Source: Antitrichia curtipendula
Taxonomy: Eukaryota; Streptophyta; Bryopsida; Hypnales; Leucodontaceae
Direction: 5' to 3'
DNA length: 64,000 bases
Assembly (NCBI GenBank): GCA_951230915.1
Contig: OX579638.1
Span: 17,502,696 to 17,566,695 of the forward strand
Shown here: positions 1,428 to 58,484 of the stretch, one piece after another
Numbering within the stretch: the first letter of the stretch is position 1
How the letters are laid out: every line of letters starts with the position of its first letter
Notes under the pieces: generated by a model
Databases searched by the model: none
Told to the model about the DNA's origin: nothing
Seen by the model: the letters and a program-made list of their open reading frames with translations, nothing else
Translations under genes and position numbers: made by a program

Positions 1428-1435
1428 GTCCCCCT
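1428..1435. repeat. Left target-site duplication of the giant hAT (GTCCCCCT)
   Basis: GTCCCCCT immediately precedes the CAGGG terminus and is identical to 17651-17658. An 8-bp duplication is the hallmark of the hAT superfamily. The exact match suggests an insertion that is not very old. Confidence 0.9.
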
Positions 1436-1445
1436 CAGGGTTGTC
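1436..1445 (+). repeat. Left terminal inverted repeat of the giant hAT
   Basis: CAGGGTTGTC, identical over 10 bp to the inverted right end. The next bases (cccgtcacgtcc) and the right-end equivalent (tatccggacgtgacg) share CGTCAC/GTGACG words but do not align as a longer perfect repeat, as is usual for the short hAT terminal repeats. Confidence 0.85.
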
Positions 1446-1449
1446 CCCG

Positions 1450-2085
1450 TCACGTCCTGTCCGTCCGTCAACATGTCCGGACGGACGTCAGGATTCAACC
1501 CCGGCATCCGTCAGGATGAAATCTGGACGAGAACCGTTGACAGAGGATGAAAACTACGGAAATGGATGGACGTTCTTCGCCGACGGGCGGCGAGCTTCCA
1601 TCGACGGACACGGAACGAGCGTGATGGATGGGTATCTGGACGGGCGGGATGGACGGATATCTGGACGGAAAACTAGACGACCATGTGGACGAGCGGGTGG
1701 ACGGGAGGGTGGACGGGCATCTGGACAAGCATGTGGACGAGAGGGGGGGCGGTTGTGTGGACGGGTATCTGGACGGGCGGGATGGACGGGTATGTGGATG
1801 GAAAACTGGACGGGCGGGTGGACGGGCATCTGGACGGGTAACTGGACGGGCGGGTGGACGGGCATCTGGACGGGTAAGTGGACGGGCGGGTGGACGGGCA
1901 TCTGGACGGGTAAGTGGACGGGCGGGTGGACAGGCATCTGGACGGGTAAGTGGACGGGTAATTGGACGGGCGGGTGGACGGGCATCTGGACGGGTAAGTG
2001 GACGGGCAGGTGGACGGGCATCTGGACGGGTAACTAGACGGTTCTGTGGACGGAAAAATAGACTGGACGGGTGGGATTGGATTTT
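1450..2085. repeat. GACGG array A1 (left subterminal), 12-bp monomer with 36-bp higher-order unit
   Basis: From about 1620 to 2040 the sequence is built from a 12-bp monomer of form TGGACGGG plus four variable bases. Three variants (ending cat, taa/taag and cgg) alternate as a 36-bp higher-order unit repeated several times near 1810-2035. Towards the terminus (1450-1530) there are looser GTCCGTCCGTC and CCGGACGG words. The period is a multiple of three, so long open frames appear on both strands with Trp-Thr-Gly or Pro-Val-His repeats; they are by-products, not genes. Confidence 0.85.
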
Positions 2086-2142
2086 TGGCTTAAATGCCTG
2101 AAGCACCCAAATCTGGTGTTGGCAAAACTTTGAAGTTAAATA

Positions 2143-2220
2143 AAACCTAACCAAGTTGCTATTTTTAGTAGTATCCAAGTTGCTATTTTTAGTAGTATCC
2201 AAGTTGCTATTTTTAGTAAG
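2143..2220 (+). repeat. 24-bp tandem repeat, three copies
   Basis: Three consecutive copies of a 24-bp unit (ccaagttgctatttttagta plus gtat), the last truncated into aagttc. It lies just inside array A1. Confidence 0.8.
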
Positions 2221-4286
2221 TTCTTCTTGAAGTCTAGTTATAGCATCAATAGTCTATTCTTAAAAATAAATGATAGTGATTTTTCGTTTCAAGACTTTGT
2301 GCAAGGGTACCCATTGCAATCTTGACTTCTTGTAGCATTGAGAGCTTTTGGAAATGTGCCTCGAAAATACAAGATCTTGGAGAAAAAATCACATTCAAAT
2401 TTTTTTTTTAATTTAAAAAAAAATATGGAGTATATTTTTAAAAGCCATAAATTGTTTGGGGTTATACATGTTCGGCAATTTAACCTCATATTTTTGTGGT
2501 CTAAATTTTTTTTAATTTTACTTGTGAAAACTGAAAAGAGGATTGGAAGACTTCACATCATTTTTGTAGTTTTAACACCCTCATGTTCAAACATTATAAT
2601 CTTTTACTCTATAAGTGATATTGTTGTGTTTTAGCAACCTATGAGCCCCTAATATGTCTTGTTTGAATTTATATGGTTACAATTTTTTTTTAATTGATAT
2701 GCCTAGTCACCTAATCAAAATGTTAACATTTTGTTCAATTTAGAGCAAATTTGTAGAAGCTCAAAACATGCCTTGGGCATCTAGGATTCTAGGGATTAAA
2801 GTTTGTTATTGAATTTTGAATTAGAGAAGTTGCTAAATTGATTTTACACTGACTATATGGCAAGAAATTCAAAAATATTAATCCATGTAGCCATGTAGGC
2901 CCTATGCTAATTATTGCCAAAAAAAATCCAAGTTGGCATTTCTCCATGTTCACTTTGAAATGAAATGAAAAAAAAAAAATTAGAATCTATTCAATTTAAG
3001 ACTTTCAAGTATAGGATCGCCATTCATAAAGTCATTTATTTCAGTTGATTTTCAAATAAATTTCATGTAGTGTGACCTTATCAAGTTAGCAATTGCAAGA
3101 TATTAAACTTTGATCATTTGATTTCCATAATGCCATTTGAGAAAAAATGGAAAATGTTCAATACTTTAATTTGTAAACTTTGGATTTAAAAATAAACATG
3201 AGGGAGTAGTCAATCAATAGTCCAACTAAAAAAACATTAAAACTAATAGAACAAAAGTTACAAAACGTGAATTATTTTTTGGTTTAATTTTAAAGACTTA
3301 AAGGAGATTTCATCAAATATGAAGCAATCAAATAATTTGTTACTTATTTCTTGCTTTGGTAAAGAATTTCCATTGTTTTTATTTCTTAGCCCCTAAAGTA
3401 ACATACTCTCATTGTCCTTTCTGCAAGGGACAAAATGGATTTTCGATAGGCTCCTATGATCTCATTTTTTACTGAAACTTTTGAAAACTTTTTCATAAGA
3501 ATGATAACATGGAATGATAGATAAACTTATGAGTTTATTCATAATACAATTTCTATTCCAATCGGTGCCTAGGAGCAAAGGGTATGCCACAATAACCTCA
3601 AACAGGGGAGATCGGGACACCGGGCGGTCCAAGACTCCGGGTAGACAAAAAAATCCACAAAAAAATGAAATACAAATTTGTATATTTTTTTTCCAGTTGG
3701 ATTATATTTTCTTTTAAATGGGAGGCTTTCATTCATCCCATTTGGATTAGGAATGGAAAAGTTATGGATTTTTTGTGGAGCGGGCAATCCTAGCGACTTC
3801 TTAAAATAAATTTGTTTCTTTCACTTCGAATGCTAATAACTTTCAATCCATACGGTCAAACATCACAAATTTTTTATCACATCATCTAAGACAAGTGTAG
3901 AACAAGATCCTTTGGTTCGATTCAAAAAATAAATTGGAAAATTTAATTCATAGGTGAACATAGCAAAAGTGGTGGTTTAGGGTGGTTTGGGCCAAAAAAT
4001 GGACTTCAAACTTTAGGGCTTCACCAAAAATAAAATAGAACACTCTTTTACCTACCATCTAAGCATACAAGCTTCTTCTATACTATTACAAAAAGTTCCA
4101 ATAGATTACAAAAATTGACAAAGGCGAAGCAACAATACACGAGGTGGAAAGAAAACAATAAATGTACATATTTTATAAATCCGTTGAAGTACATGGTAAA
4201 CTAATAAAGGCTTTACATAATTACATACGTTCGCTTTGTACAACTTCCAATATTTTATTCTATACATCTATCTAGTTGTACACAAT
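2221..4286. other. AT-rich interior of the hAT, no gene
   Basis: AT-rich filler with long A and T runs and no coding signal. It holds one copy of a ~60-bp dispersed module at about 3825-3884 (actttcaatccatacggtca core), also found at 13493 and in 52-56 kb. Confidence 0.6.
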
Positions 4287-6563
4287 CTAGTCTACATCTT
4301 CGATTACAACGCCGCGTGCTATGCTATTTCTCAAAAATCGTTGCAATTCTTCTTGCGATTCGAAAGTCCTCAGAAGCTGAAGTGCTTCTATATCGTATCT
4401 ATCATGTAAGTGGGAAAAAATGTCATTCACGAGGGCTGGCTCATGGAAGGTATTTTCTTCAGTGTACGCCATTTCTTCCTCATAGCTCAATTCCCCCTCA
4501 AATCCGACTGGCTGGCCTTGAGAGTTAAACATGATGTGTTGTGGATGTGGTGCGTGTATAAAACATTCTGGGCATTTCTAAGCATTCTGGGTCCCAATGT
4601 CCACCGGCAATCTGACCAAAATATAGTCGACGCCCTGGATCATTGTCTCCAAACACCCTCCTGATCACCTCTGTCACTTGGTTGTCACTCGTCCATGGTA
4701 TGTCAGCCACCGTTCCTGCCGGGAGGTGTCGGTTGTGGTGGCCCCACTTCCAAAGCCATGTCATGTCGGACCCCCAATGTACTCTATTACCGGGGCCCGG
4801 TAAATTTTCTTCATTGTACTCGTAATGTTGAGGCATGTGGTCTTCAAGGCCAAACGTTTTGTACAGTTGTGCATGAAATGGAGCCCTGCATTGCGCACAT
4901 CTCTTTCTGGTGACCATGTGTGGAATAAGACACACGGGGTGGTATAGATGGCCACATGTACCAAGATTCCATCCACCCTCGGGGCCAAACGGTTGTTGGC
5001 ACATTATACATGTTGTTCCATCTTTTACAAAATCTGGAACGGAAGGCCACACTAGTGGGGTAATGCCATCGTTGTTGGGTGGCCCGTACCGTTGGCGATC
5101 GATATTATATTGGAATTCCAAGTCTGGATGGGCATTCCAATCAATGCTTGAATTCTCCCTATACGCTGGCAAATCATCGGTGAACATTTCTACCACCCGA
5201 GGCCACAAGGTCAAGCCAAAATAACGTTGACCGCCATCATTGAATTCTGCAACCACTCTCCTCACTTCACGTTGCATTTGCTCAGCCTCTTTTAGCGCTA
5301 AGATGCATGTCAACTTCATGTTGCACATTTGAAGCAGCCTCTGCTCCGTCTGAGGAATTTGAACCAACTGCATATTTTCAACACTCAATGTGGTCATGGT
5401 CTGCTCCAAGGTTGTTCGAGCTGCAGTAACCACCGCCACCTCTGCCTCGGCGTTGTTGGCACGAAGTTCCAAAGCACGCATGGCGTTTGTTAATTCTTCC
5501 ATGTTTGTGCAAGTACTTCTAAGCTCTGCTTCAACTCGCTCAGCACGTGCACGCATAATATCCAATGTGGCACTTTCTGAACTTGGAAAAGTGGATCGTG
5601 ATTGCAGCACAAACTCAAATGTATTGCTCGGGCCTGGTATGTCTTCATCTGCACTGTATGTAGCACGTTCCACTACAAGATCGAGTGGTGGAACTCAGTC
5701 TGTGCTGACCCGCCTTTTACGCTCTACGAGCTCGGCTTCACGTGCGATGAGGCGCACATTTTCATCTTGAACGGCCCGCATCCTTGCATGATGAACTTCC
5801 AACACTGTAGCATGTTGTCGTCGTATTTCTTCTTTTTGTGCTTGCAGTGTTTGTACTAATTGGCGCAAGCGAATTACTTCTTCATCGTCAGCTTGCACTC
5901 CACCAATCACAGCTTGTTGGTTTACATCTGGACCGCTGCCCTGACCAACTTCTACCTCCATCAACTCCGTCCCTGGATGCTCCGCCAGTGGAACCACGTC
6001 CATTTGCACATTTTGGACATCATCCAATGGCACGGCAAGATTTGGTACATTGTCCAACGGCACAGCAGGATTTGGTGCAATGTGGCGAGTTCGATTTGGA
6101 AATGTATTATTCCGCGATTTGCCCAAAAAGCTGCTCCAGTCCACATCCTTGCCAAGAAAAACCTCCGCATATGCCATTTGGCACAATGAAAGTGTCCCGT
6201 CTTTTTTGGATCTTGCCCCCCAAAGTGCCAATGATACTTCAATCATCCTCTTCTTGAAGTGCAGATGTTGGCACTGGTCAATATTTACCATGCCAGATTT
6301 CACGTGCACCTCGTACCGGTCATGTGGCCAATGGCGGTTGATGTGGGCTCAATCTATATATTGACGACATATCACTCTTGTCCATGGGCCATCTGCCTCC
6401 AACCACCTAGGCTTTGCCATAACCTCTTCGGCATTAAGTGTGCCCCAATCCAAAGTTGCTCTGTTTCCTCTCTTCCTTCTACCTGGGGGTTCACCTGCAG
6501 GTACCAAACCTCCTGGGGGTCACCTCCAGGTCCCGAACCTCCTGCTACATCCTCTACGTCCAT
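4287..6563 (-). pseudogene. Coiled-coil / RING-H2 finger cargo gene, broken
   Basis: Reading right to left, a conserved-looking frame runs from about 6520 (RATLDWGTL, then VMAKPRWLEADGPWTRVI) through 5695, then 5692-4525, then a shifted frame 4532-4287 ending EDVD. A heptad-rich region (about 5290-5900) is probable coiled coil. At 4888-5010 is a RING-H2 finger: C-x2-C-x14-C-x-H-x2-H-x2-C-x10-C-x2-C, all eight ligands present. Such fingers usually act as E3 ubiquitin ligases; the target is unknown. Damage: TGA at 6349-6351 and at 5695-5697, both in frame, a frameshift near 4530, and another near 6490-6520 if the ATG at 6563 is the start. An acceptor-like ttttacag lies just 5' of that ATG, so an upstream exon is possible. 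The two TGAs fit TGG-to-TGA decay of methylated DNA. The gene is divergent from the kinase gene. Confidence 0.7.
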
Positions 6564-6974
6564 TCTTGATACCTGTAAAATGACACACACGATACTGTAT
6601 GCGAATACAATGACAATTTGCTTTGCCTTCTGTTGCGTGAAGGCAACTGAAATGTGGCAAAACAATGTCAAATGTATAACACTTCCCCTCAAATTGCAGA
6701 ACGAAGCTTTCTCAAGCTCGGACAGTGCAATTCAAAAGAGGAAGCACGTAAACTGTCCAAAAAAATTTACTTATACCCCCCAATTACCGACCCGATTAGG
6801 CAGGGTAATTAACATAACATCAGCCCGTCCCCCCCCGAATCCAGATCGTCCAGGGCGTGGGACAGCCCTAGAATGGACGGCCAATACGTCCACAGAGGTC
6901 CGACAGAGGGTTGGGACGCCGTCAACGGGTTCGGGGCGCCGTCGACAGGTTTGGGAAATAATTACACCGCCGCC

Positions 6975-7425
6975 CGAGACTTGGACGGACGGATTTTCCG
7001 TCCTCTCGACGGTCTGCCCGTCCCCTCGACGGCCTGCCCGTTCCGTCGACGGATTGCCCGTCCCCTCGACGGAATACCCGTCTCCTGGACGGCATACCCA
7101 TCTCCTGGACGGCATACCCGTCTCCTGGACGGCATACCCGTCTCCTCGACAGCATACCCGTCTCCTCGACGGCAAACCCGTCTCGTGGACGGCAAACCCG
7201 TCTCCTCGATGGGATACCCGTCCTCTGGATGGCCTACCCGTCTCTTGGACGGAAAGGACGTCCAAAAGGACGGGGTGCCCGTCTCTTCGACGGCTTGTCG
7301 CTGGTCGGGAACGGCCCGCCCATCCTCTCGACGGCCTGTTCGTGGTCTGGGACGGCCTGTCTCTGGTCAGGAATGGCCCGCCCATCCTCTCGACGGCCTG
7401 CCGAACGTCCTGGACGGCCCTTTAA
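6975..7425. repeat. GACGG array A2, 20-bp monomer with inverted GACGG/CCGTC pairs
   Basis: About 6990-7260 is a near-regular tandem of a 20-bp unit such as ctcctggacggcatacccgt (three consecutive near-identical copies at 7081-7140). Each unit contains GACGG and, inverted, CCGT(C), so the array is a chain of imperfect palindromes. To 7425 the pattern becomes looser. It lies 5' of the RING gene. Open frames across it on both strands are by-products of the repeat. Confidence 0.85.
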
Positions 7426-9939
7426 AAATTTTATTTTTATTTTTTTGAAAATTGATTTTTTATTTTTAGTAAAAAACAGTTTTTTTATTTCTTCATGTCA
7501 TGTCCATGTTAGAAAGTCTTGTAGCCATCTTAGAAAATGTTATGACTGTTTTAAGTGGGAAGATGACCATCATGGAAACAATTTTCTGCTGATTTGGGGT
7601 AGTCTACAAACTCTTTTGGGCTTACTGGACAGTACACTTCAAAAATTAAAAAAAAAATCACAATTAATCCAAAAAATAAAATTCCAATTGCGTTCTTCAT
7701 TTTTCACATGTGTCTTTGTACGGAAAAAATTTGATTATTTTTGCTAAAGGCAATACAACAAATCAGTCATTCTGCCTGTCATAGGCAGGTTTATCTTATA
7801 TCACAAGGATAATGACATTAGAATCCATCATAGCATAAACTTAATTTCCATTTCATGATTTATTTAGAATGTACTAAATGTAGTAGACATTAAAAACACA
7901 TTTGAAGTGCAAATCGCAATAATGAAATTTCATTTTTAGGGTCGTGTTGGGGGATTTTACATAAAATAGGAACTAGAGAAAATGAACTTTTGCTTGATAG
8001 TTAGACTCAAACTCAGAAAATATCAATTTGGGGGATAAATTTCAGATTTAGACTAAGGAGCAACAACTTCCCAAGATACATTAAAGTATCATTTTTTTTT
8101 TTTTTTTTTTTTCCTAATCTCTAAATTACGCGGAGGCAAATATCGGAAAGACTACAAAATCATTTGGATACACTTTGTAACTCAACATGGAAGGTCCCCG
8201 AAAAACGAATTGAACGCTTCCACAATCTTTCCATCTCATTGAAGTGATTGAATTGCCATCAAATTGGCACTAAATGATGTCGTTGGGCGTTCAGAGGTTG
8301 AAGTTTATTGTAAATATCTTGCAATCTACAATTCTATATAGGCAAAGTTTGTGAAATTTCTTCCGGTCAATTGAACACTACTCTAGTACTCTAGTATGAG
8401 ATCTTACATACTACAAGTAGATGTGCACCTTAAAGGCCTAAAGTCCTAAACACATTCATTTTTTTTTTTACATTCTTTACTATAGAAATGGCAATTTATT
8501 TCAGATATAGGATGCAAAAGAGGCCTTGGGACTTTAGTCAGTTTAGTGGTTAACATACGGTACTACATAAACAATTAATAAACAATCCATATGAAAAACT
8601 ATAATAATTCACCGTTAGTTGCTTTATAATTTAGAAGCCATAAAAAAAATATAGAGACCACAAAAATGTCAAGTTCATGTACTCAATGTTGCATTTCAAT
8701 TTTATTACACCAATCCACTCTTATTTGCTATAGTTACATAAACTTGAACATCAAATACTCTTAAAATTGCAACAGTGAAGAGGGTTTAGGGTTTAGGGTT
8801 TGGGATTTAGGGTATTGGCCTATAAGATTTACTTCAAAACTTAGCATGGACCGGAAACCACGAAAAATGTTCTTCCTTTTTTTAGTTGGCATTATAAGTG
8901 CAAAACTTGATCGAGATGTAGTCTTTGAAGTTTGAATTGGAAAAAAATAGATTAATGATTTAAAATCAAAGTTTTATAAAACATATTGAAGACACCAAAA
9001 AACGGCATAACAATATCTTTAGAAGGTAAAACATTCTTAAGTTTAGATGTATAGGGCTAAATTCTTTTTCTGTAATGTATGAATGGAAAGCCAAAACAAT
9101 GTTTTACATTAATCAATGATATGCATATGACATATGTTGTTTAGGAGGTCTTTCACTTATTTCATAATTAACCATTTCAGAGTTTTAATCTTACTACCTT
9201 TAACTAGAGCATTTAGAGGGTGGTTTTTGTCTTGGTCTTTGTATATTTGATCCGGGCTTAGTAAGTTATTGAATGTTTGTACGTTTGAGACTTTGAGTTT
9301 AGTATATTAGGGTAGACAGGGTTTAAAATTCAACAAAATACTAAATTGTCAGGTGCACTTACATGCAGGGAAGGATGGAATCAAAATACAATAATTCCAA
9401 AGGTGAAATTGTTCAAGTTATAATTGATAAAATTCATTTGAATTCGAATTTGAGCCCTACAGAATATAAATTATTTTAAGGGATTGCGAGATTCTGGGAT
9501 TTTTGTAAAAAAAACATTGCCCAATGCCAACAACTTTCGTGAAAATGGATGCAATTAGAATGAATCAAATATTAACATGAACATCCAAATAGAACATTCT
9601 AGGACTAACATTAAGAAGTTTTCAATTTGACCTTCTATGGTTTTTTCTATGTTTTTTCCATTATTTACGTGCAACAAAATATAATTCCATTCTAAATGAG
9701 CATTAAACCTTGTTTTTTGAGCATTTGAATGTCATCTCTGGTATTTATTTGTCCTCTAATTGAAACAAGTGTGAACATTAAGTTAACACTCTTAAACTAC
9801 CCGCCACCATAGTCTAATGCCCGATTGAGAGGGAGGACACCTGTCCTGACAAGTCCGAGAGTGCCAAACCACATAAATGAAAAATTCTCCGAACAAGGAT
9901 TAGAAATGAATTACACTCGGCCAGCACTGTTTTGAATGG
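7426..9939. other. AT-rich interior of the hAT, no gene
   Basis: About 2.5 kb of AT-rich DNA between arrays A2 and A3, with poly-T runs (8092-8112, 8460-8469). No coding signal. It holds the telomere-like patch listed separately. Confidence 0.6.
8782..8812 (+). repeat. Interstitial plant telomere-type repeat (TTTAGGG)
   Basis: gggtttagggtttagggttt followed by degenerate gggatttaggg, about four units of the plant telomere heptamer, in the AT-rich interior of the hAT. Confidence 0.75.
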
Positions 9940-10396
9940 CCCGCTCGACGACCTTCCCGCCCTCTCGACGGCCTTCCCGTCTCTCAAAAGTCTTCTCGTC
10001 CTCTCGACGGCCAGTTCGCGGGCTGGACAGCCTTCCCGTCCTCAAGCCTAAAATCGCAGGCTGGACGGTCTCCCCCCGTGGACGGCCTTCCCGTCTTCCC
10101 GACGGCCAGTCCGCGGGCTGGACGATCTCCACCTCTGGACGGCCTTTTCGTCCCCTGGACGGCTTGGCCCCTGGACGGTCTCCCCCCCTGGACGCCCTTC
10201 CCGTCCTCTCGACGGCCAGTCCGCGGGCTGGACGGTCTCCCCCTCTGGACGGCCTTCCCGTCCTCTCGACGGCCAATCCGCGGGCTGGACGGCTTGGCCC
10301 CTGGACAGTTTGTTCCTCTGGACGGCCTTCCCGTCCTCTGGACGCCTTGGACGGCCCTGGACGCTCTGTCCGTCCTCTCGACGGCCTGTCCGTCGA
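9940..10396. repeat. GACGG array A3, 20-bp monomer and ~57-bp higher-order unit
   Basis: Monomers of form cccgtcctctcgacggcctt (20 bp) alternate with segments containing gtccgcgggctggacgg; the combination recurs as a unit of about 57 bp near 10212-10320. GACGG and CCGTC alternate in orientation. It ends about 220 bp 5' of the TATA box of the kinase-like gene. Confidence 0.85.
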
Positions 10397-10407
10397 CGTG
10401 AATGATT

Positions 10408-10604
10408 GGGGTGAATTGACCCCCTCGCTCGGCCTTACTAGGGGTGCATGTAAAAAAAAGCCCTCTATTTTCGGCCGATCCAGGGTTATTATTTGATGTG
10501 ATTGAACTAATTAGGGGTCTTTATGAATTCAGAATTTGCAAAAAAGGAATGGCGCGGAAAACAGGGTCGGCCCGGAGGGCCGAGCGAGGGGGTCAGTTCA
10601 CCCC
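10408..10604. repeat. 197-bp foldback with 27-bp near-perfect inverted arms
   Basis: Positions 10408-10434 (starts ggggtgaattgacc, ends cgctcggcc) and 10578-10604 (starts ggccgagcgag, ends cagttcacccc) are inverted copies with one mismatch in 27. The element lies between array A3 and the TATA box at 10621. It could be a small MITE or part of the promoter. No clear target duplication was seen. Confidence 0.85.
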
Positions 10605-10620
10605 GGCCACGTGAAATGGG

Positions 10621-10628
10621 TATATAAG
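10621..10628 (+). promoter_or_regulatory. TATA box of the kinase-like gene
   Basis: TATATAAG in the context gggtatataagac, about 200 bp before the ATG at 10829. A transcription start about 30 bp downstream would give a leader of roughly 180 nt. Confidence 0.6.
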
Positions 10629-10828
10629 ACTATTTTTAGGGTACTTTCGCCACAGTCTCTCCTGCTCTGACAGTGCTCTCTTGTCTTGGATTGGTTGTAG
10701 TCCTTGCTTGCGAGCGCGGGTGCTGGGTAGAGGTTGTTTTGAGGAATAAGGGGGGCGGTTTTTCACTTTGTGGAAGACGAATTCCTAATTTCTTTGATTT
10801 TGATTATTTGTTACTTGTTACTGTCACG

Positions 10829-12490
10829 ATGGCTGGTCGCGATTTCTCGAAGAGAAAGGTTGATGATTGGTGGACAGGTGTTGGAGATGCACCGGTTATG
10901 GACCCGGATGCGGAATCACCAGAGCCTGTTTCAGAGGCCGTAGCTGCAGAAGGGTCTGTAGCTGCTGTGGGGGGTGGAGAGTCTTTGAAGGGGAAGAAAA
11001 AACAACGAAGGAGGCACAAGGCTACAAATCCAGAGAAGTGGCCAAGCAAGGGTGCAACGCGAAAATTGCATGAAGTGGCGTTGGAATTTTTTGATCAATA
11101 TTCGATTTTGCAGTTGAACTCAAAATACGTCTCATGCGGATTACAGGGAGTGGATAAAATTAAACAAAAGTTCCACCACATGTTCTGGACAACAATGAAC
11201 GCGGATGAGTGGCATGAAGACCGCACGAAAGAATGCTTCGATCATTGGTTGGAGTCACAAGTGCAAACGTGTATCTTCAACCTTGCCCAAGTTGCGGAAA
11301 AAATAAAAGGCTTTGAGAAGAGTGTAGTGCCCAGACAACAAGCATTGAGTTTGTTGCACAAGAAGGTGTATTGGTGGCACGATGTAGTGCGTGGATTGTC
11401 TTCAAGCAACATCCGTTCCGCTCTGTGGTTTCAACGAAGTCAGAACTTGGCCTTTGGTCAACAAGCTGCAGGAGGAGTGGTTTTCTTTGAAAGAGGAGTG
11501 GTGGTGGTTCCTTTGTTTGGCCATAGCAAACAAGGGGGGCATGGGAGGGTGCGCAAAGTATGTGTTCAAAATTCAAAACATATTCCCGAGAATATGGAAT
11601 TAGCTGGGAAATCAGCCTTGTGCGTGGATGAATTGAAGAAGTCTAGGGAGACGTTGTCCATCGAGGCATTGGTATGTCCGTGCGAGCATCCAGGGGTCAT
11701 CAAATTCTTTGCTATAAATGACATGACCATGGAGTGTTATTCGCAATGGTGGAATGGCGGTACTCTCGGCGCCATGTTTACCCTTGACGAGAAGAACCGA
11801 GATCCAGATGAAATTGGGGAGTTGGCTTACCATGCAACTCCCCAATCAATGCAAGAAGCCAAACGACTCATGGCATATAGACGCAAGCGCACTGAACTTG
11901 CGTGGGCGATGATTTGCATTGTGGATGCAGTGCAACAGTGCTCTGTATTGCACAACGACATCACACCGGAGAACATTATGCTTCATTTTCCGAATGATGA
12001 TGGAAGAACCGTGTGGATTGGTCTATATGATTGGGGAATGGGTAGCCGCATCAACGAAGAAACCCCTTCTCTTTACCAATTCAATTGTCCAAGGAAGTTT
12101 CAGGCAACCCAAGCGCAACGTTGGTAGGTGGCTCCTGAGTTGATGTACTTGATTGGAGAGACAGGAACTTCATCATCTCCTACTCGCAGGGTTAAGCCAC
12201 CGTGTGTTAGTATACACACGGACGGATACTCCATAGGGAAATTGGCTATGAAGGTATGGAAAAAAGATCGCGGAAATGTAGATATGATTCCGGACCTTAC
12301 GGCATTTGGTACGTTTCAAACCATGTTGGGTGAATTGTGCAAGGCGGAGCCACTACAACGACGCTCGGTGACTGGAGTCGTGCAACGTCTAAGTGGTGCT
12401 CCAACGTTTTGGACACCACCCATGGATTGCTACCGCGAGGCCCGCAAAGAACAAGACCTTCAAGAAGAGCAGGCGCGCAATGAAGATTAG
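10829..12490 (+). pseudogene. Protein-kinase-like cargo gene with one in-frame TAG
   Basis: The start chosen is the ATG at 10829 (gtcacgATGGct, good context); the frame is open further 5' but without an ATG. The product would be 552 aa plus one stop. Residues ~54-64 (KGKKKQRRRHK) look like a nuclear-localisation signal. A kinase domain follows: Gly-rich loop about 235-241 (QGGHGRV), candidate ATP-binding Lys261 in LAGKSA, catalytic loop HNDITPEN at 375-382 (Asp377, Asn382), metal-binding DWG in place of DFG at 401-403, then QRW-TAG-VAPEL with the stop at codon 433 (12125-12127), directly before the APE motif. The frame continues to a TAG at 12488 with kinase C-lobe-like sequence. The TAG removes the C-lobe unless read through, spliced or an assembly error. 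Substrate unknown. Confidence 0.72.
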
Positions 12491-13768
12491 ATAATAGTGT
12501 ATTACCATGTAGTTGCAAAATTAGTGTTTGCTTAGTACATGCGGTTATTATAGTATGGGCTTGAGGACATCCATAGCAATGTAGCACACTTTGTGGCTTC
12601 AATGCATTTTGTACTCATTTTGGTTTATATAAAGTTATAAACGTATTTTACCTAAACATTGAGTTGTAAAAAATTTCTTGTCTTTCCTAACATTATCATT
12701 TAAATTGCGTGTAAACACACATCTTATATCTTTAGTACTAAAAACTTTGAATTGTATATCACTACAAGAAATTTCAATTAGTTTTGTGCAAAATTGTAAT
12801 TGTCAACATTTTTGTTGCACTTCATGCCATAAATAAGTAAAAATAGAAAAAACAATTCAAGAGATTCTTAATTTTTAGTTTTTTACAAGAGGTACAAATA
12901 TCAATAGAGATTTCTAGTCAGAAAAATTTTCAATTGGTTATTTAATTTTTTATGCCCAAAACTAGTAAACAACCACAAAGAAAAGCTTGAAGTCAAATTT
13001 GACTATCAAACCAAATTTATATTTTTATTGAAAATCAGCATAATATTTTAATATTTTTCAACATACGTAAGAATTCATTTTCTATTTATGCTTTTTTTTT
13101 CCAGAAAATTCAATGGAAAATTGATTTTATTGTGATTTTATAAAGCTAAACGTGGAAATCAAATTTTATCAATTATAATATGTATGAGAATAATCTGAAA
13201 CTGGGGCCATAAATGAATGAATGAACACAAATTATAGTTTTATAATTTTAATTTTAATGAAATTTGAAAAAAAGAAAACATACATGAAAAAAACACCACA
13301 CTGTGTTATTTGGATTGCAAACATAGTTTCCAATTGCAATAATTCTTTCAAATTTTGACCTCGATTCTTGAATATTCAAAAAAATAATTCAAAAACAATA
13401 GTGCCCCGAAGGCCCAATTTTCCATAAATTACACTCAGTGAAAGTTAATCTGAAATTGCAAAGCTAGCATTCAGAAAACTAGTTTTTCCAAGTTTGAATG
13501 CTAATATCTTTCAATCTATTCGGTCAAACTTCATGAAATTTTTACCACATGATAAAAAACATGTGAAGTATAAGATCTTACGGTTAGATGTTATAAAAAA
13601 CATTTTTTCCGTATGTTGAGGCAAATGCAAGAGAAAAGACAGTTCTATGAGAATGAAAGGAACAAAAGTCATATTTCATATTAATGCTGATTTCAATATG
13701 CAAGGTATTGAGCCGCTAAAACCATTGCATTTGAAAACATGAAGACCCTATTGTCTTTTCAAAAACAT
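12491..13768. other. AT-rich spacer between kinase-like gene and transposase 3' end
   Basis: AT-rich, no coding signal. The converging genes end at either side. A copy of the ~60-bp dispersed module lies at about 13493-13551, in the same orientation as at 3825. Confidence 0.55.
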
Positions 13769-16700
13769 TCAACGTCTTCCATGCCTAAAAATGCGCATAG
13801 AAGTATTTGCATTTGCTTCTTGTACTATTGGTTCACTACCACCCATTTCTTCGAGTGGACCTTGTCGAGGCATCGGCCCCCTGTAATCACTATCTCCTGG
13901 AACCTCACCATCTTCACCTATAGTACCACCGATGGATTCACCATCATCATTGGATGTTGCACTACCACTTTCGCTAGAAGCCTCGGAATTGCGGTTTCGT
14001 TGTGGTTGAGCTATAGAAGACAACGTCCGAAAAGGTCGTTGGCCCATTGCGTCCATAATGCCATCTATATTGGGTCCTCCTGTTTGAACTTCTCTTGAAA
14101 ATGGTTGTGAAGCCGCTTCTTCCCTCCTCAGCCTTCTACGCGTTCTACTACTTACACGTTCACTAGTAGTACCTTGTAGTTGTGGACGCTTCCCTCGATT
14201 ATTGGCATGTACAGGTGGCCGCAATGAAGTCATATTTCTAGTCACACGCTGTGATACCATACCAGCCAATCGTGTACCTATCAACGAAGTTGGTTCATGT
14301 GGACGGCCGTCGGAATTAGACGGCCTTGATGAACTTTGGATTTGTAGATTTTTCAATATTGGCATTTGCCTTTGTGCAACCGAGACTCGATTTGGAGGGG
14401 CCATATGTGCTTCTTCAGCTTGAGGGGGCCCTTCACTGCGGGTGGTCCTCATGGGCAGTGACGGTGGTACTACTACGTCTTCTTCATGTCCTCTTTGAAC
14501 GTGAACACCATCTCTTTCTATTGTGGCATCAACTTGTACATCCATAGGGTCTGGACTTAGTGGTCTCGGTGCCACAACGTCCTCGTTTGTATTGCCCCCA
14601 CTTGGCCCAGCATTCCACATTTGTGGCATTCGTGGTGGACTTCCTTGATGTCCCTCGTAGTCATTGTCGTTGTTATCACCCTCTTCAAAGTCAAATATGG
14701 ATGCATCAATTAGAGGACGCACTCCTCCCGCCCCACGAAATCTATCAAACGGTGGCTCATTGTCGTCATTGGAACTATCATCTGAATCGTCATCATTGGG
14801 ATCAGAGAGAACCGAACCACGGTCTAGACCATCAGATTCATCTGTCATGGAATCCTCTGACATCATATTTTCAGTATACCACCTTGTCGGATTTGCTGCA
14901 GTCCTTTCTCTAAGAGTCTTGGAATTGGTATAAATGTAAACCAATTCCTCAGCTCGCTCTGATGTCAATCTATTACGTGATTTGTTGTGGACAAACGAAT
15001 ACATGCTCCAATTGCATTCACAGGATGATGCAAAACACACTTGCGCGAGGATCTTTCTGGCAATCGGTGCAAGTGTACGAGCACCGGCTCCGAGAAGGTC
15101 CCACCATTCGTGAGGTTGCAAATTCAAGGCGTTTACATCAGGAAGTCCACCGAAAATGCCTCGCCGATCTCTAAATGCTTGGTACTCAGACAAAGCTGAA
15201 GCAAATGCTTGATCTCCAACAGCCAATTTGCGCAAAACTCTCAGTATGGCTTCTCTTGCCTCATTATCATCCATTAGCATGACTTCGTCAAGTAAAAAGG
15301 GATTCAATAGAGCCCCAGCGTAATGCAAATCTGTCCTGAGCATGTCCCAGCGCTTGTAGAAATCATCGGTGGCGGAAATTGCATATCTACGCTCTAATGA
15401 AAATGGTGGATCCTCCAAAGATAAAACATGCTTTTCCACCTTTTTCATTACAAGCCATGCCTTGTCTAAGCACGGGTGCTTGCCATCAAACTCTCGAAGA
15501 GCAATCAACACGGGCTCCACTATGTGCACAAAGTTCAAACATTTCCTCCAAAATTCATCCGTTCGCACATATCGTCGCACATCGTTAGCTTTTCTTTGCT
15601 TTTGATTGGATGCCAATCTCCGCGTGTACTCATTCCACTGCGGATCGTGGACTGTCGATTCTATCGCTTCCCTCACCTCCACCAAACGTTCGATCATGAG
15701 GAACATGATAGCAAAGCGTGTTTGAACGGAATTTTTCAAAACGTGATTAGGAGAATGTTGTCGAAAGATTGCAAGTGGCATGTGATGCGTTCGAATGTAT
15801 TTCACAATTGACTTGGCTTTCTTGACCATACTTGTAATCCAATCTTGTTTTTTCCAATCTTCAAGTAGAAGGTCAAGTGCATGTGCTGAACACCCTTGAA
15901 AATATATGTGTGGAAATCTACAAAGTAACAGAGCGCCAGCGGCCAATATGTTTGCTGCATTGTCTGTACAAACTTGTACCACGTTCTGTGCCCCTACCTC
16001 GTCAATGTAATCACCCATGCAATTAGCCACGTAAGTAGCATCTTTGCATTCACCTGTTGTGTCTATCGATCCAAGAAAAACCTCTCCACTTGTACATGCC
16101 AACATGACATTCATCAATGGTCGATGTGTAACGTTGTCCCATCCATCAGAGCATATTGTAACGCCATATTTGTGGATTGGTGCCCTCGTCTTCTCTGCTA
16201 CAATTGCTGCCACTTCGTCTTTTGTAGATTTTATGAGCTTTGTACGAAGTGCATGGTACGCTGGAGGTTTGTAGCCAACTCTTGATTCCGATGTTAATTT
16301 CACTGCATCCAGAAAAGCAAGATGCCTCACTACATTGAATGGTATATTGGCTTCGTAGAAAAACTTAGCCCACTTCTTATCAAGTACTTGCTTGTTTGAT
16401 GCGTTCAGTCCTTCTTGTAGAGACAGTTGCCTCATCGATCGACTGTGGGTCAAACTAGGGTTGGGCGCCTCCGATGATCGTACTTGAGAGCTTTGCCCCC
16501 CAATGTTTTCTCCTCCATCGTTTGTCGAGATTGAAGCATCATGTTGTTGCTCACCACGTACTACACTTGGTAGTATCGTTGATGGTGATGTCACTTCCAC
16601 GTCGCGTCCAGTTCCATGCGAAGTGTCCGTAGGTATATGTCCTCCACAATTAAAAAACATTACCTTCACGGCTGCATTGACTTTAGTGCACGCTCTCACT

Positions 16701-16849
16701 CCAAGGAGGGTGTCATTTCGTCTATATTCCAAATGGAAAAGCAACCGATCCTTTCGATAGCTTAGCAAAGCTTCGCAAAACTTGCAAACAACTTTTCCAT
16801 CTGGCCGTAGTGTGTACCAAGGTTCCCACTGTGATCTTGCTCCACCCAT
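13769..16849 (-). CDS. hAT transposase (DUF659 / hAT dimerisation), intact frame
   Basis: The transposase excises and inserts the element. The ATG at 16849 (MGGARSQWEPW) gives 1026 aa; the frame is open 5' to about 16960 without an ATG, and a pyrimidine-rich tract ending gtgcag just 5' (about 16875-16890) may be an acceptor of an upstream exon. Residues ~12-40 are a BED-like zinc finger (C22, C25, His about 39). DUF659-type RNase-H-like core: SDGWDN at 234-239 (Asp235), CTDNAAN at 294-300 (Asp296), CSAHALDL about 320-327. C-terminal dimerisation region about 575-645 with HEWWDLLG (580) and SCECNWS (Glu612, likely third catalytic acid). Residues ~645-1026 are a low-complexity, Asp/Ser-rich then Arg-rich tail, longer than usual for the family. 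No stop or frameshift interrupts the frame, in contrast to the two cargo genes. Confidence 0.9.
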   Translation of the reverse strand: MGGARSQWEPWYTLRPDGKVVCKFCEALLSYRKDRLLFHLEYRRNDTLLGVRACTKVNAAVKVMFFNCGGHIPTDTSHGTGRDVEVTSPSTILPSVVRGEQQHDASISTNDGGENIGGQSSQVRSSEAPNPSLTHSRSMRQLSLQEGLNASNKQVLDKKWAKFFYEANIPFNVVRHLAFLDAVKLTSESRVGYKPPAYHALRTKLIKSTKDEVAAIVAEKTRAPIHKYGVTICSDGWDNVTHRPLMNVMLACTSGEVFLGSIDTTGECKDATYVANCMGDYIDEVGAQNVVQVCTDNAANILAAGALLLCRFPHIYFQGCSAHALDLLLEDWKKQDWITSMVKKAKSIVKYIRTHHMPLAIFRQHSPNHVLKNSVQTRFAIMFLMIERLVEVREAIESTVHDPQWNEYTRRLASNQKQRKANDVRRYVRTDEFWRKCLNFVHIVEPVLIALREFDGKHPCLDKAWLVMKKVEKHVLSLEDPPFSLERRYAISATDDFYKRWDMLRTDLHYAGALLNPFLLDEVMLMDDNEAREAILRVLRKLAVGDQAFASALSEYQAFRDRRGIFGGLPDVNALNLQPHEWWDLLGAGARTLAPIARKILAQVCFASSCECNWSMYSFVHNKSRNRLTSERAEELVYIYTNSKTLRERTAANPTRWYTENMMSEDSMTDESDGLDRGSVLSDPNDDDSDDSSNDDNEPPFDRFRGAGGVRPLIDASIFDFEEGDNNDNDYEGHQGSPPRMPQMWNAGPSGGNTNEDVVAPRPLSPDPMDVQVDATIERDGVHVQRGHEEDVVVPPSLPMRTTRSEGPPQAEEAHMAPPNRVSVAQRQMPILKNLQIQSSSRPSNSDGRPHEPTSLIGTRLAGMVSQRVTRNMTSLRPPVHANNRGKRPQLQGTTSERVSSRTRRRLRREEAASQPFSREVQTGGPNIDGIMDAMGQRPFRTLSSIAQPQRNRNSEASSESGSATSNDDGESIGGTIGEDGEVPGDSDYRGPMPRQGPLEEMGGSEPIVQEANANTSMRIFRHGRR

Positions 16850-17154
16850 TGCTCTTATCTGTCCTCCTTTACCTGCCCCTGCACCAAAAAAAAGATTAGT
16901 ATTCTGTTTGAAATGTGATGTGGAAACAACACTTGTTGCTCTCACAACAAGTGCCACCACAACACACTCTTCTTGGACTTTGCTCTACCACAATGGTTGT
17001 ACTCCAACCAAGTCATGAAAGGCAAAATCAGCAAGGGAAAGTAATCTTGAATAGGCAGAAGTCCTTAATATACACCTTGAAGCCCTCCCTAAAATCCTAA
17101 ACCCTAAACCCAGCTAGACGGAGTGACGGCTGATGGGGTGGACCCTAAACCCGC

Positions 17155-17640
17155 AGCCTTGCCAACGAAACCGTCCAAGGGGCGACTGTCCCGTCCTATG
17201 ATATTCCGGTCTAGGGGACGGGACGGTTTTCCGTCCAGAGGACGGAGAGGCCGTCCAAGGGACGGATTACCGTTCTGGAGACGAGAATTCCGTCCAGAGA
17301 TGGGCTCTCCGTCCAGGGGACGGCTTACTGTCCAGCGATGGACTCTCCGTCCAGAGGACGGCTTACCGTCCAGCGACCCACTCTCCGTCCAGGGGACGGC
17401 TTATCGTCCAGTGGACGGCCTCTTCGTCCACAGACGGGCTCTCCATCCAAGAGACGGATGTCCATTTGGCGACGGAGTCACCGTCCAGGAGACGGCCCGA
17501 CACCGTCGCAGAATGGACAAACTTCATCCGCGCTCCGGATGGTCTCGTCAGTATCGGCGACGGGCTGTGACGCGTCAGGACGCGTCAGGATGGACGCGTC
17601 ATGACATCCGGACGTGAAAAGCCCACGTCACGTCCGGATA
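17155..17640. repeat. GACGG array A4 (right subterminal)
   Basis: Tandem segments of form gtccagaggacggcttaccg alternate with accgtccagcgatggactctc (period about 38-40 bp) from 17200 to 17480. They are followed by gacgcgtca words and a pair of inverted acgtccgg motifs up to the terminus. It lies between the transposase 5' end and the right end of the hAT. Same GACGG/CCGTC core as A1-A3. Confidence 0.85.
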
Positions 17641-17650
17641 GACAACCCTG
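17641..17650 (-). repeat. Right terminal inverted repeat of the giant hAT
   Basis: GACAACCCTG, the inverse of CAGGGTTGTC at 1436-1445. Confidence 0.85.
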
Positions 17651-17658
17651 GTCCCCCT
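17651..17658. repeat. Right target-site duplication of the giant hAT (GTCCCCCT)
   Basis: Identical to 1428-1435. Confidence 0.9.
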
Positions 17659-24816: not shown

Positions 24817-25370
24817 ATGAATGATAGCTTTTTGGAAAGCTTACACAAATTTCTATTTTTCCTCCAAATTTCTATTTTTCCTCCAAATTTCTATTTTTCC
24901 TCCAAATTTCTATTTTTCCTCCAAATTTCAAGTCATTCTAACACTTTCCATTATCTATGGCCACCCGAAGTTTCGGCCTTTAAAATTGAGGGTAGCAGAT
25001 CCTTCTTCACTTCAACATACACAACTCTTTCATAAATACTCCAAATAGAACAAATGATAGCTTGTTAGAAAGGCTAACAATATTTACTTCAAACTCTTAA
25101 ATTTTTATTTCAAACTAAAGAACTGTCCATCTTCTATGGTCGGTCGAAGTCTCTGTCCCTTATTGTGGGAGGCAACAGACCTTTCTCCACTCAAACTAGC
25201 ACAAATTTCAATTCACAACTTCAATTCAAGCATGAAAGAACTTTTTGGAAGCACAACACCATGATATATAATTCCTCCAAATTTCATTTCAAACCTCATA
25301 ATATTCAACACCCTATAGTTCCTCAAACATTTGGGCCTTATCAACAACAACGAGAGAGAAGATGAATAGT
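24817..25370 (+). repeat. Degenerate tandem duplication, 2-3 units of ~170-240 bp
   Basis: Units begin at about 24817 (aatgatagctttttggaaag), 25051 (caaatgatagcttgttagaaa) and 25226 (gcatgaaagaactttttgga), each followed by tttcaaa-type text; the first two also share ctatggycrbycgaagt and a TTCACTTCAA/CTCCACTCAA stretch. Unit one contains five copies of a 19-bp repeat, tttctatttttcctccaaa, at about 24848-24930. Confidence 0.6.
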
Positions 25371-44291: not shown

Positions 44292-45871
44292 TCAAGGTTC
44301 GCCGATCTAAGCCCAACAACAACAGAACATTGTCAATTAATGCGCATTACATTCAACCAACCACACAAAAACCAACAGCAACGCACAGAATTTAATCCTC
44401 AGACTCAAAATTTGAAGCACCTCCAGATCGTCATACAGCAGTAAGCAATCACAGCAAACAATTGCAGAGTCTTCCACTTACATAGGTAACCGAACCCTTC
44501 CCTTCCACAATCGGGTCATACGAATGCTCCGTCGAATCAATCCGCTGGAACACCGGGATCCCCGCGCTCTCAACAGCATCAAACCTCGCTTTGTATACGA
44601 AATACATCACCACCGACACCACTCCAAAGTACACACGAAACACCAAATCTACCCCCCCGCTGACTACTTCGAGAACAATTTTCGCCCACACGGGCATCCC
44701 GCTGGTCGCAATCCCTTGCGTCAGGACCGTCAACAGCACTGATAGTGAAATCGCAGTGAGCGTGACAGCGACAATCGTCCCCGCTCTTCCGATTCTCGCC
44801 AACCTCGTACTCCGTTTGAGCGCCTCTATTCCGTAGTTTCCAGGCTCCAATACGGCTATCACTTGCGCTAGTGCGAACACGATGGCTAGGAAAATGGTGC
44901 CAGCGAGGAAGAGAAAAAGCGCAAATAAGTAGAGTAAGTTGGGGTCCGACCAGCCAGCGGTGACGAACATGATGGTGCAGAGGATGCCGCCGATGATGAT
45001 TGTGAAGAGGGAGAGGAGGACGTAAGCTAGGACTTTCCAGAGTTGGGTTATGAGCATGCGGAGAAAGGCGTGGGGGAGGAATTTGAAGACTTTGGGGATG
45101 ATGGAGCGGTCATCGTCGGTGTCGGTGGGGTTGTAGAGGTAGGCTGTGATGTAGGAGACCGCGCCTGTGCCGAGAGTTCCCAACACGTAAATCAAGAAGA
45201 AGAGTGTCCAAGATAAGATCTTTGTGAATGACTGGTCGCCTGTTGGGTCGGTAGTCTGCAGAATGGGGAGCCAAAGAGTTTCAGTTACAAAAGAAAGGCG
45301 TATTTTCGAATTGAAGCATGGAAAACAAGTTTCCGAAGTCTTCAAGAACTGAAACATGGAAAAGCTAGTTCCCGATCTCTTCAGGAATTGAAGCATGGAC
45401 AAAGCTCTCGAACTCTTCAAGAGTTGAAGTATGGACATGTTCCTAAACTCTTCAAGAAATGGAACATGAAATCGCTTTCGAAATCTCGAACTGAAGCACG
45501 GAATAGTTCCCGAACTCTTCAAGAAATTGAAGCATGGAAAAGTTTTCGAATTCATGAACTGAAGCAATAATAGTTTCCCGAATTCTTACAGCATAGAAAA
45601 GTTCCCGAGTTCTCTACTAATTTCGAAGTGGGGAGAGATAGGGGCCGGGGACTGTCGTTACCTGCGCAGTGTTGACGGCGCTCTTGACGACAGGGGGCGT
45701 AAAGGATGGTGGCAGCAGCACGGTTTTAAACACTGTAGCAATCGAGATCGGGAGGTAGAAGGCGAGGAAGAATGGCAGAAACAGACGGTAGTGCTTGCGC
45801 AGCAGTCTCCCTGATTCCTTGAAAATGGATGCCACGCCCCATCTCTCCATCTCCTCCGGGCGCATCCCCAT
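44292..45871 (-). CDS. Six-helix plant membrane protein, three exons
   Basis: Exon 1 45871-45662 (ATG, 70 codons, ends CAG|GTAACG); exon 2 45255-44482 (after ctgCAG|, ends TAT|GTAAGT); exon 3 44306-44292 (after cttAG|; IGEP and a TGA). All junctions are phase 0 and GT-AG; introns 406 and 175 nt. The product is 332 aa. About six hydrophobic segments: residues ~30-53, 82-106, 130-165, 170-200, 220-245 and 255-290; no signal peptide. N-terminus MGMRPEEMERWGVASIFKES and the short C-terminal ...TYIGEP resemble a conserved land-plant family related to Arabidopsis AT1G31130/AT4G19950 (annotated as polyadenylate-binding-protein-binding, function unproven); this is from memory. Exon 3 is very short and least certain; without splicing the frame runs on to SGRLCNCLL. 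No TATA box seen. Confidence 0.75.
45310..45615. repeat. Minisatellite in intron 1 of the membrane-protein gene, unit ~40 bp
   Basis: Six to seven imperfect copies of a unit containing cgaactcttcaagaaatgaa and gcatggaaaagttccc. It fills most of the 406-nt intron and begins about 50 nt from the acceptor. Confidence 0.75.
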
Positions 45872-56300: not shown

Positions 56301-57642
56301 TGGCAAATTTTGTGACTTTATCAATATAGTAGTTGATACTAAAAGTGATTCAAGTTTCATATAATTTAGCTTAATAGATTCTTGTATAAAATGGCAAAGA
56401 ATTTAAATTTAAAAACATCATCATTGCTCAGTCTGACAATTCCAAAACTTGGTTAATTGTTACAAACTAGGCTTGATTAACATTTTAAGGAAGTGATGAA
56501 GTATCATCTAAGATGTTCTAAGTAAAATCTTGTAGAGTTTGAGGATAAACTTCTTTTTAATGTCTAGTTTAATACAAAAAATTGTTGAGAATATTATAGT
56601 AGTAAAAATCACATTGGCTTCAATTGAACAAATAGGTGGGATTGTTATTGAAAATGAAAGTCTCAATAATAAGAGCACAAGAAAACTTGACATCTTTATA
56701 ATGGAGTAGAGTTTGAAACTTGTTGAGAAAATTATGATTATTATTGGCAGTAGAGACTATAAGTCATATTAGACCTATTAGACAATCTTCAAAACATATA
56801 CAAAACAAGTTATATTGTTTGGTTGGTTTTGAGCTAATTATTATAAAGGTGCAGGTCTTAATGAACACTTTAATCTTTAAAGCCCCCTTGTGTCTTCTAC
56901 AAACAAATGAAAGTTCAAGTAAGTTCCGATAATCTCAAATTTTAAAAAGACTTTTTGAAACTTAAAAAAAATTAGAAAAACACATTAGCTTTTGGGGAAT
57001 ACAATTTTTATTTCAATGGGGGACTTGGGGCAAAAGTTATGTCATTATAAGCCCAAATTTTAGGTCACCTGGCAAAATAAATATCCACAAAAATTTAATA
57101 TTAAAATTTAAAATTAATTTTTTTGTAAATTATATTTTTGTTGTTTAACTGAGCAATTTTTATTCATTCCATTTGGATTAATGTGAAAGTTAAGGATTTT
57201 CTACTTTTATAGGCCCATCACAAAAAACTTTTCAAATATAATATATTGTTTTGTATTTATTTTAAACTCAAGTTTCACAATTAAAAAAATTAAAACCAAC
57301 AAGGTTGAGTATGCTTGCTAGCACAATCTGATCATTGAAATTAGTGTGTTTCAATTCCATCCTAGAAATATTAAATTCCAAAATATTACATTGGCCATCA
57401 CTAGTAGTGTGAAAAGCAATAGGCCCTAACTAATTTTTTTAATTTTTTAGATCTAAGAATATTTATCATGCTTCTTTGATGTCACCAATCAATTCTTAGT
57501 TTTTCTTCAGTAAGATTTGCCATCCATTCTTTAAATTATTTTCTTAGTTTTGAACGACTTGCAATTGCATGAATATTCATAATTATAGTTTATTTTAGTT
57601 GAGCATTCAAATTGGTTCAAATCGGTTATATTACATCCACGT
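56301..57642. other. AT-rich intergenic, no gene
   Basis: Nothing supported up to the assembly gap. Confidence 0.5.
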
Positions 57643-57842
57643 NNNNNNNNNNNNNNNNNNNNNNNNNNNNNNNNNNNNNNNNNNNNNNNNNNNNNNNNNN
57701 NNNNNNNNNNNNNNNNNNNNNNNNNNNNNNNNNNNNNNNNNNNNNNNNNNNNNNNNNNNNNNNNNNNNNNNNNNNNNNNNNNNNNNNNNNNNNNNNNNNN
57801 NNNNNNNNNNNNNNNNNNNNNNNNNNNNNNNNNNNNNNNNNN
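57643..57842. other. Assembly gap (200 N)
   Basis: Exactly 200 unknown bases; open frames across it are meaningless. The round size suggests a placeholder rather than a measured gap. Confidence 0.99.
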
Positions 57843-57965
57843 GGGGACGCAAGGAAGTGATGTCTACTACTTGAGATGCATATCTTTGAGGAGTGGGGGA
57901 GCAAAATCAACTCGGAGGACACCTAAGGTGGGGAATATTAGAATCTTAGGGGATGCACTTAGTTC

Positions 57966-58484
57966 TACTACAACAAACCATGTGCGAACAATTGATTTCT
58001 AATAAACTATAATTTCAACCAAAAATCTTGAGCATTGTTTAATAATGACTATAGGTTTCTATTGCTAAAATTTCCAACTCAAATAAAATATGAAATGATT
58101 TCTAAAAGAGGTTGAAAATGAACTAAAATGGCATGTTTTTCAACTCAAATAATTATAGAGAACACATTTAGATGACCATTGAATCAATATTCAGTTCAAA
58201 ATGAACTTTCAATAGAGAGATATTTTTAGGAATTTTTTGTTCATTTTTTAGACTAATTTTTCTTATATAATATAGGATTGTGAAAGTTATTTTTCAATTC
58301 TATAGTGTATCTTTTTACTTCAAAAATTTGTAACTAATTATTATTAACAAATAAAAATATCAATAATTCAAAACATGAACTTTCAAAGTAGGAAAATCTA
58401 TTCATATTTTATTTATTTGTTTTTATTTAAAATTCAAAAAGTATATAGGGAGTCCAAAGTTTTGTTTGCACGTGGTTTCTAATG
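57966..58484. mobile_element. Probable inverted-repeat element, ~519 bp
   Basis: Left end tactacaacaaaccatgtgc and inverted right end cattagaaaccacgtgcaaa share aaccaygtgcraacaa. CACTA-like lettering at the left. No target duplication could be confirmed. No coding capacity. Confidence 0.45.

Follow-up and report, generated by a model that had tools for sequence, protein, structure and literature searches.

The 64-kb stretch of Antitrichia curtipendula DNA analysed here (assembly GCA_951230915.1, contig OX579638.1, positions 17,502,696 to 17,566,695 of the forward strand; hereafter the window, 64,000 nucleotides in full) contains a DNA transposon which spans window positions 1436-17650 (16,215 bp) and is a hAT element, judged by its transposase, its ends and its target site duplication. 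Three genes lie inside it: a hAT transposase and two cargo genes, one kinase-like and one encoding a RING protein. The features of the element and its immediate flanks are as follows, in window coordinates.

1428..1435, no strand: left target site duplication GTCCCCCT, 8 bp, read from the sequence
1436..1445, plus strand: left terminal inverted repeat CAGGGTTGTC, 10 bp
1446..2075, plus strand: subterminal array of GACGG at the left end, built of 12/36-bp units; GACGG/CCGTC occurs 36 times, shuffled bases giving 2.4 on average (maximum 8)
4287..6563, minus strand: RING gene of about 760 codons, forming one exon in the copies where it is open, and broken in the window copy (position 4287 comes from counting along the printed frame by eye)
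6830..7430, no strand: array of GACGG on the upstream side of the RING gene, built of 20/62-bp units, with 34 GACGG/CCGTC
9930..10400, no strand: array of GACGG on the upstream side of the kinase gene, built of 57/110-bp units, with 24 GACGG/CCGTC
10829..12490, plus strand: gene for a protein-kinase-like product, 553 codons in one exon, which in the window copy has a TAG in frame at 12125-12127
13769..16960, minus strand: hAT transposase, open frame of 1063 amino acids, with an ATG at 16849 as the possible start
17130..17640, no strand: subterminal array of GACGG at the right end, which at the same time lies upstream of the transposase; built of 38-bp units, with 24 GACGG/CCGTC
17641..17650, minus strand: right terminal inverted repeat GACAACCCTG, the reverse complement of CAGGGTTGTC
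17651..17658, no strand: right target site duplication GTCCCCCT, 8 bp, read from the sequence

The terminal inverted repeats are short (10 bp), as expected for the hAT superfamily, and the window has a single occurrence of CAGGGTTGTC and a single one of its reverse complement. Outside both ends GTCCCCCT is repeated perfectly, at 8 of 8 bases, which is a target site duplication of the hAT type. A preliminary description of this DNA had proposed a single insertion with inverted ends and a perfect 8-bp duplication 16 kb apart, and this is borne out both by the sequence and by the genome-wide counts of ends given below. No Rfam family matched the window at its gathering score.

The transposase frame matches the Pfam families DUF659 (PF04937; E 5e-39, 133.8 bits against a cut-off of 34.7) and Dimer_Tnp_hAT (PF05699; E 3e-6, 27.4 bits against 21.4), and the intact hAT transposase noticed in the preliminary description is confirmed by these matches and by the open frame. 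No BED match was found in Pfam at E 0.1 or better; a CxxC near the N-terminus is visible by eye. There is no Mutator-type family among the Pfam matches of the window, the transposase being of the DUF659/hAT kind.

Two relatives of the kinase-like protein, P0001 and P0008, score 33.2 and 34.9 bits with Pkinase (PF00069; cut-off 31.7), and the fragment from the window alone scores 21.5 bits, which is under the cut-off. Across ten relatives, some of them fragments, residues N381 and D400 of P0001 are invariant and K260 and D376 nearly so; we take these to be the kinase catalytic residues. Profile and residues together place the product in the protein kinase superfamily, as a predicted kinase. For the RING protein, seven ligand-like positions of relative P0012 (C553, C556, C571, H576, C579, C590 and C593) are invariant in ten relatives and the eighth is not. 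The profile of the RING proteins matches the RING structures of RNF24 and RNF38 (E 2e-6 to 1e-3), and in the predicted structure of P0012 the RING matches are weak, with a best Foldseek E of 0.07. The protein is a probable E3 ligase.

The genome to which the window belongs (400,189,583 bases in 303 contigs) was searched for further copies. At three or fewer mismatches the extended left end has 482 matches (237 and 245 on the two strands) and the extended right end 549 (285 and 264), and the reversed-pattern controls for both ends have none. Pairing was done with 100 listed left ends, all exact, and 100 listed right ends, 84 exact and 16 with one mismatch, each left end being matched with the closest listed right end that faces it at a distance of no more than 60 kb. 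This gave 30 pairs, with 70 listed left ends lacking a listed partner. Twenty-four of the pairs measure 15.7-20.6 kb, four exceed 30 kb and two are of 337 and 356 bp; none from the listed ends falls at 2-14 kb. Chance pairing of the ends was considered and is ruled out by the genome-wide end counts, the empty controls, the matched duplications described below and the size classes of the pairs. The element is thus almost certainly, as far as sequence can tell, one copy of a high-copy hAT family of about 16.2 kb.

Two further sets of ends were seen. Many of the 16 listed one-mismatch right ends share the same change in the last-but-one base, and a scored family gene lies near one of the 16; these ends are perhaps a separate non-autonomous or related subfamily. 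The ends CAGGGTTGTCAA, which share the first 10 bases, occur at 62 places, 26 of them forward and 36 reverse (the reversed pattern has 5 and 14), and maybe belong to another hAT family.

Genes were scored for 43 of 1835 first-look transposase candidates, 97 of 1365 kinase candidates and 108 of 1288 RING candidates, so that all gene counts are lower bounds. By these scored lists, nine of the 24 pairs at 15.7-20.6 kb hold all three genes, 16 hold at least two and two hold none. The 43 transposases, the window's included, are 93-100% identical, and four of them, again with that of the window, are without a stop; the mean Kimura two-parameter (K2P) distance among 30 transposases is 0.025.

The three genes recur together in a fixed arrangement. 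A convergent kinase gene lies 1647-1706 bp from 31 of the 43 scored transposases; a RING gene arranged as expected goes with 34 of the 43, both cargo genes with 25 and at least one with 40. Seen from the other side, 67 of the 108 scored RING genes are accompanied by a kinase placed as expected (in 65 cases at 4763-8721 bp), and two show a wrong arrangement. Thirty transposase loci were fetched together with 1.5 kb on either side; they were the best scoring (the window's included) and not a random sample, and every one of them continues into the 3' region of the kinase gene. Five of five further RING regions hold RING-gene sequence at the expected place. Within 40 kb of the 100 listed left ends, a scored RING gene was found for 45 (43 at 2.9-3.6 kb), a kinase for 43 (38 at 8.8-11.3 kb) and a transposase for 22 (17 at 12.1-14.3 kb); 42 listed left ends have none of the three nearby. 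The recurrence of all three gene types, which the preliminary description had suggested looking for, was therefore seen.

That three separate genes or elements should lie by chance between unrelated ends, as a composite or as nested insertions, is extremely improbable. Insertions into the element do occur: the two copies fetched end to end, on contigs C8 and C1, have one nested insertion apiece, about 3.5 kb long, and two of 12 copies tested for duplications span about 30 kb or more. In two copies with duplications that match, the left end lies more than 25 kb from the transposase. Against a composite origin stand the fixed spacing and orientation in tens of copies and the 24 of 30 pairs among listed ends at 15.7-20.6 kb. 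The duplications speak strongly in the same direction, as they match across 16 to more than 30 kb: in the 12 further copies tested (those with a known exact right end, 20 bases being read at the left end) they agree at 8 of 8 bases in ten, 7 of 8 in one and 3 of 8 in one, whereas in 132 mismatched pairings used as a control at most six of the eight flanking bases were identical. For the C1 and C8 copies the duplications agree at 7 of 8 and 6 of 8 bases, by eye. Both of these copies are colinear with the window element, at about 94-98% over long stretches and lower in the arrays.

As the fixed gene order recurs, 30 of 30 loci reach the kinase gene and ten of 12 duplications are perfect, the cargo is resident in the family. 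The idea that it lies in separately bounded insertions, which the preliminary description had named as a way in which it could fail, was rejected on the colinear C8 and C1 copies and the fixed spacing and arrangement across copies. Its further claims, that the two ends belong together and that this is a giant hAT lineage with resident cargo, are likewise upheld, the first by the duplications of the 12 copies and the second by gene recurrence, matched ends and colinear copies.

Some kinase genes also occur as pairs about 28-37 kb apart in opposite orientation, at C8:23623354-23655068, C5:32729037-32764687, C3:10278709-10308059 and C1:45161073-45199486. The paired kinases have equal scores in C8 and C1 and nearly equal ones in C5; in C8 and C5 the RING genes likewise form pairs of equal score. 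This suggests large inverted duplications or an assembly effect.

Relatives of all three proteins were found in other assemblies. For the transposase there are 51, the nearest at 81%, and relatives in Ceratopteris (a fern) and Linum (flax) are at 27-31%. The kinase has 11, of which six span the whole query (58-81%, 549-569 amino acids), and the RING protein, with copy C8 as the query, has ten at 25-67%, of which three span the whole query (42-67%, 733-796 amino acids). Kinase relative P0004 (73%) and transposase relative P0025 (57%) probably share one contig, since both have a longest contig of 6480 bases. No kinase relative was found in viral contigs (query P0001) or in prokaryotic genome contigs (query A1).

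The four GACGG arrays share a core and differ in their units. Base shuffles of the four stretches give about 2 GACGG/CCGTC with maxima of 6-8; the stretches were picked by eye and the shuffles control base composition only. Elsewhere the motif occurs 8 times in the remaining 13.8 kb of the element and 23 times in 46.3 kb of the window outside it, and four clusters of it lie at matching places in the C8 and C1 copies. The distance from the transposase to the outer end varies from 628 to 972 bp across 25 copies, and the right array is the likely cause of this variation.

According to the available portions of the papers cited, the Ac transposase binds subterminal AAACGG hexamers (PMC3260210), hAT-derived DNA-binding proteins usually include CGG or CGC in their preference (PMC8097297), and the anti-silencing protein of VANDAL21 binds fast-evolving motif arrays in non-coding parts of its element (PMC5735166). 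By analogy, we infer that a protein of the element, most likely the transposase, binds the GACGG arrays. The arrays may instead be structural repeats or docking ends of a hAT with resident cargo, with no role in the expression of that cargo, and subterminal repeats are indeed usual in hAT elements (PMC3260210, PMC8097297, as far as their available text goes). Two of the four arrays are, however, internal, each just upstream of a cargo gene and with the same core in different units, and the remainder of the element holds few such motifs, as counted above; we consider arrays with no role in cargo expression rather unlikely.

The reading that we favour, and regard as likely, is that of a high-copy three-gene hAT with a transposase that docks on the arrays and with the kinase and RING proteins as helpers. 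That the cargo serves the element in some way is somewhat less sure but still probable, while a specific helper role for the kinase and RING proteins is a tentative proposal.

Several observations weigh against this reading. Neither cargo gene is intact in the window copy, in which the transposase is open, because the kinase gene holds the TAG listed above and the RING gene has TGA codons at 6349-6351 and 5695-5697 and two frame changes, one between 6477 and 6537 and one between 4529 and 4585. Of five further RING genes that were fetched, not one has a fully open frame (a stop is present in three, L056 is cut short and L059 is interrupted by an insertion). The RING proteins score 22.4-25.9 bits with PF13639, under the curated cut-off of 27.3, and the predicted structure of kinase relative P0001 has a predicted local distance difference test score (pLDDT) of 48, too poor for use. 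Two miniature elements, C6:8057580-8057935 (356 bp) and C6:8123642-8123978 (337 bp), have exact family ends and none of the three genes; copies with the same ends that lack the cargo, which the preliminary description had held would speak against it, thus exist, yet these two are also without the transposase.

Purifying selection among the copies in the genome was sought for the transposase and the kinase and none was found, so that the test of the cargo across copies proposed in the preliminary description turned out negative for the kinase. Amino-acid-changing to silent variants number 366:149 among singletons and 152:57 among shared variants in 30 transposase copies, and 132:51 and 32:15 in 13 kinase copies. 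Leaving out C-to-T-type changes, singletons against shared variants stand at 109:43 and 20:9 for the transposase and at 40:8 and 6:2 for the kinase, again with no difference. When two kinase subfamilies, one older and one younger and with ten copies apiece, are compared, the fixed differences are 7:6 and the singletons 146:68 (P = 0.22). As the singleton and shared ratios are about equal, no selection is visible within the burst; both tests are weak, the copies being a recent burst and many variants C-to-T-like. The differences among copies look like decay after insertion.

These points bear on the possibility that the kinase and RING genes are passengers, that is, host genes captured once by an ancestral hAT and spread by its burst with no use to the element. 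Transposons do pick up genes, the variants of transposase and kinase both look neutral, and the window copy has broken cargo beside an open transposase. Against a passenger origin, open cargo frames are still present in the genome: eight of ten fetched kinase genes are open from the start to the family stop (not a rate, as the ten were preselected for having no stop listed in their first 432 codons), and RING frames of at least 800 codons with no stop inside the matched part are present among the matches listed. No intron splits either cargo gene in the open copies seen, so the description of the cargo frames as near full length and free of introns holds for the introns and fails, for the window copy, on the stops and frame changes. 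None of the 30 pairs among listed ends has the 2-14 kb size that gradual loss of cargo might leave. Moreover, the six kinases and three RING proteins that are full length in other assemblies would have outlasted frames of no use; these alignable proteins, with kinase catalytic residues and most RING ligands conserved, argue for long-term constraint on the cargo. We therefore hold a passenger status to be distinctly unlikely.

Under the favoured reading of a three-gene hAT with helper cargo, the transposase would excise and insert the element, with the terminal repeats and the GACGG arrays as its docking sites. It, or another protein of the element, would probably also control the cargo promoters, given that the RING gene and the kinase gene each have an array of this motif upstream. 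The kinase and the RING protein, as a probable E3 ligase, may change or remove a host factor that limits the element, such as a silencing or repair factor; alternatively, they may regulate the transposase itself. The fullest form of this scheme, a self-regulating giant hAT whose transposase binds the end and promoter arrays and whose kinase and RING proteins jointly disarm a silencing or repair protein of the host, or rewire it, is speculative and on balance doubtful.

Outside the element, a frame of 372 amino acids at window 44449-45567 on the minus strand has a repetitive start and, by eye, a membrane-protein-like stretch; no Pfam family matches it at E 0.01, and its start lies within reach of tandem repeats that overlap it at 45308-45587. 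At 24846-24929 a 19-bp unit is repeated perfectly in tandem, in 4.4 copies, and a run of 200 N inside 57501-58000 is a possible assembly gap.

Autonomous hAT elements are usually described as a few kilobases long with a transposase only, and the family in the window departs from this, with 24 of the 30 listed-end pairs at 15.7-20.6 kb and with kinase and RING genes present. The Ac/Ds system of maize has, like the window element, a hAT transposase, an 8-bp duplication and CAGGG-type ends, and Ac is not known to encode anything but the transposase. The subterminal motifs of the two are also alike in ending in CGG, the motif of Ac being AAACGG, and Ac measures 4.6 kb (PMC3260210, available text). 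The window element differs in its 16.2 kb, its kinase and RING genes and its arrays upstream of cargo. Pack-type elements, in which variable fragments of host genes lie between transposon ends with no transposase of their own, are similar in holding non-transposase coding sequence between such ends. The window family differs from them in having the same near-full-length genes in fixed order and place across copies, plus a transposase.

VANDAL21 is a Mutator-like element and not a hAT, and VANC is not known to be a kinase or a RING protein. As described in the available portions of PMC5735166, VANDAL21/Hi of Arabidopsis is likewise a three-gene plant transposon (VANA, VANB and VANC), in which a short motif forms fast-changing tandem arrays upstream of VANA21 and in the introns of VANB21 and VANC21. 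Motif binding is known for VANDAL21 (PMC5735166) and is a prediction for the window element. In rust fungi, the available text of Kojima 2025 (PMC12730594) describes hAT7, with TET/JBP cargo, and IS3EU, with an alpha-kinase, as DNA transposons that keep a gene for a non-transposase enzyme, and these show that DNA transposons can keep enzyme cargo. The kinase gene of IS3EU is, as here, opposite in orientation to its transposase. Both are fungal and differ from the window element further, hAT7 in its 7-bp duplications and its TET/JBP cargo and IS3EU in belonging to another superfamily and in the alpha-kinase type of its kinase (PMC12730594, available text). The words ring and ubiquitin have no occurrence in the main text of that paper, and no hAT with kinase and RING cargo was found in the literature searched, the coverage of which leaves out most subscription papers.

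The presence of genes for a kinase and a probable ubiquitin ligase in the normal set of a high-copy hAT suggests that signalling machinery can travel on cut-and-paste elements. The family also offers a testable example of the way in which a transposon might counter control by its host. With four arrays that share a core and differ in their units, a shared trans-acting factor is directly testable. If the self-regulating scheme is true, VANDAL anti-silencing would have an independent counterpart among hAT elements, one that has persisted across lineages and has multiplied to hundreds of copies.

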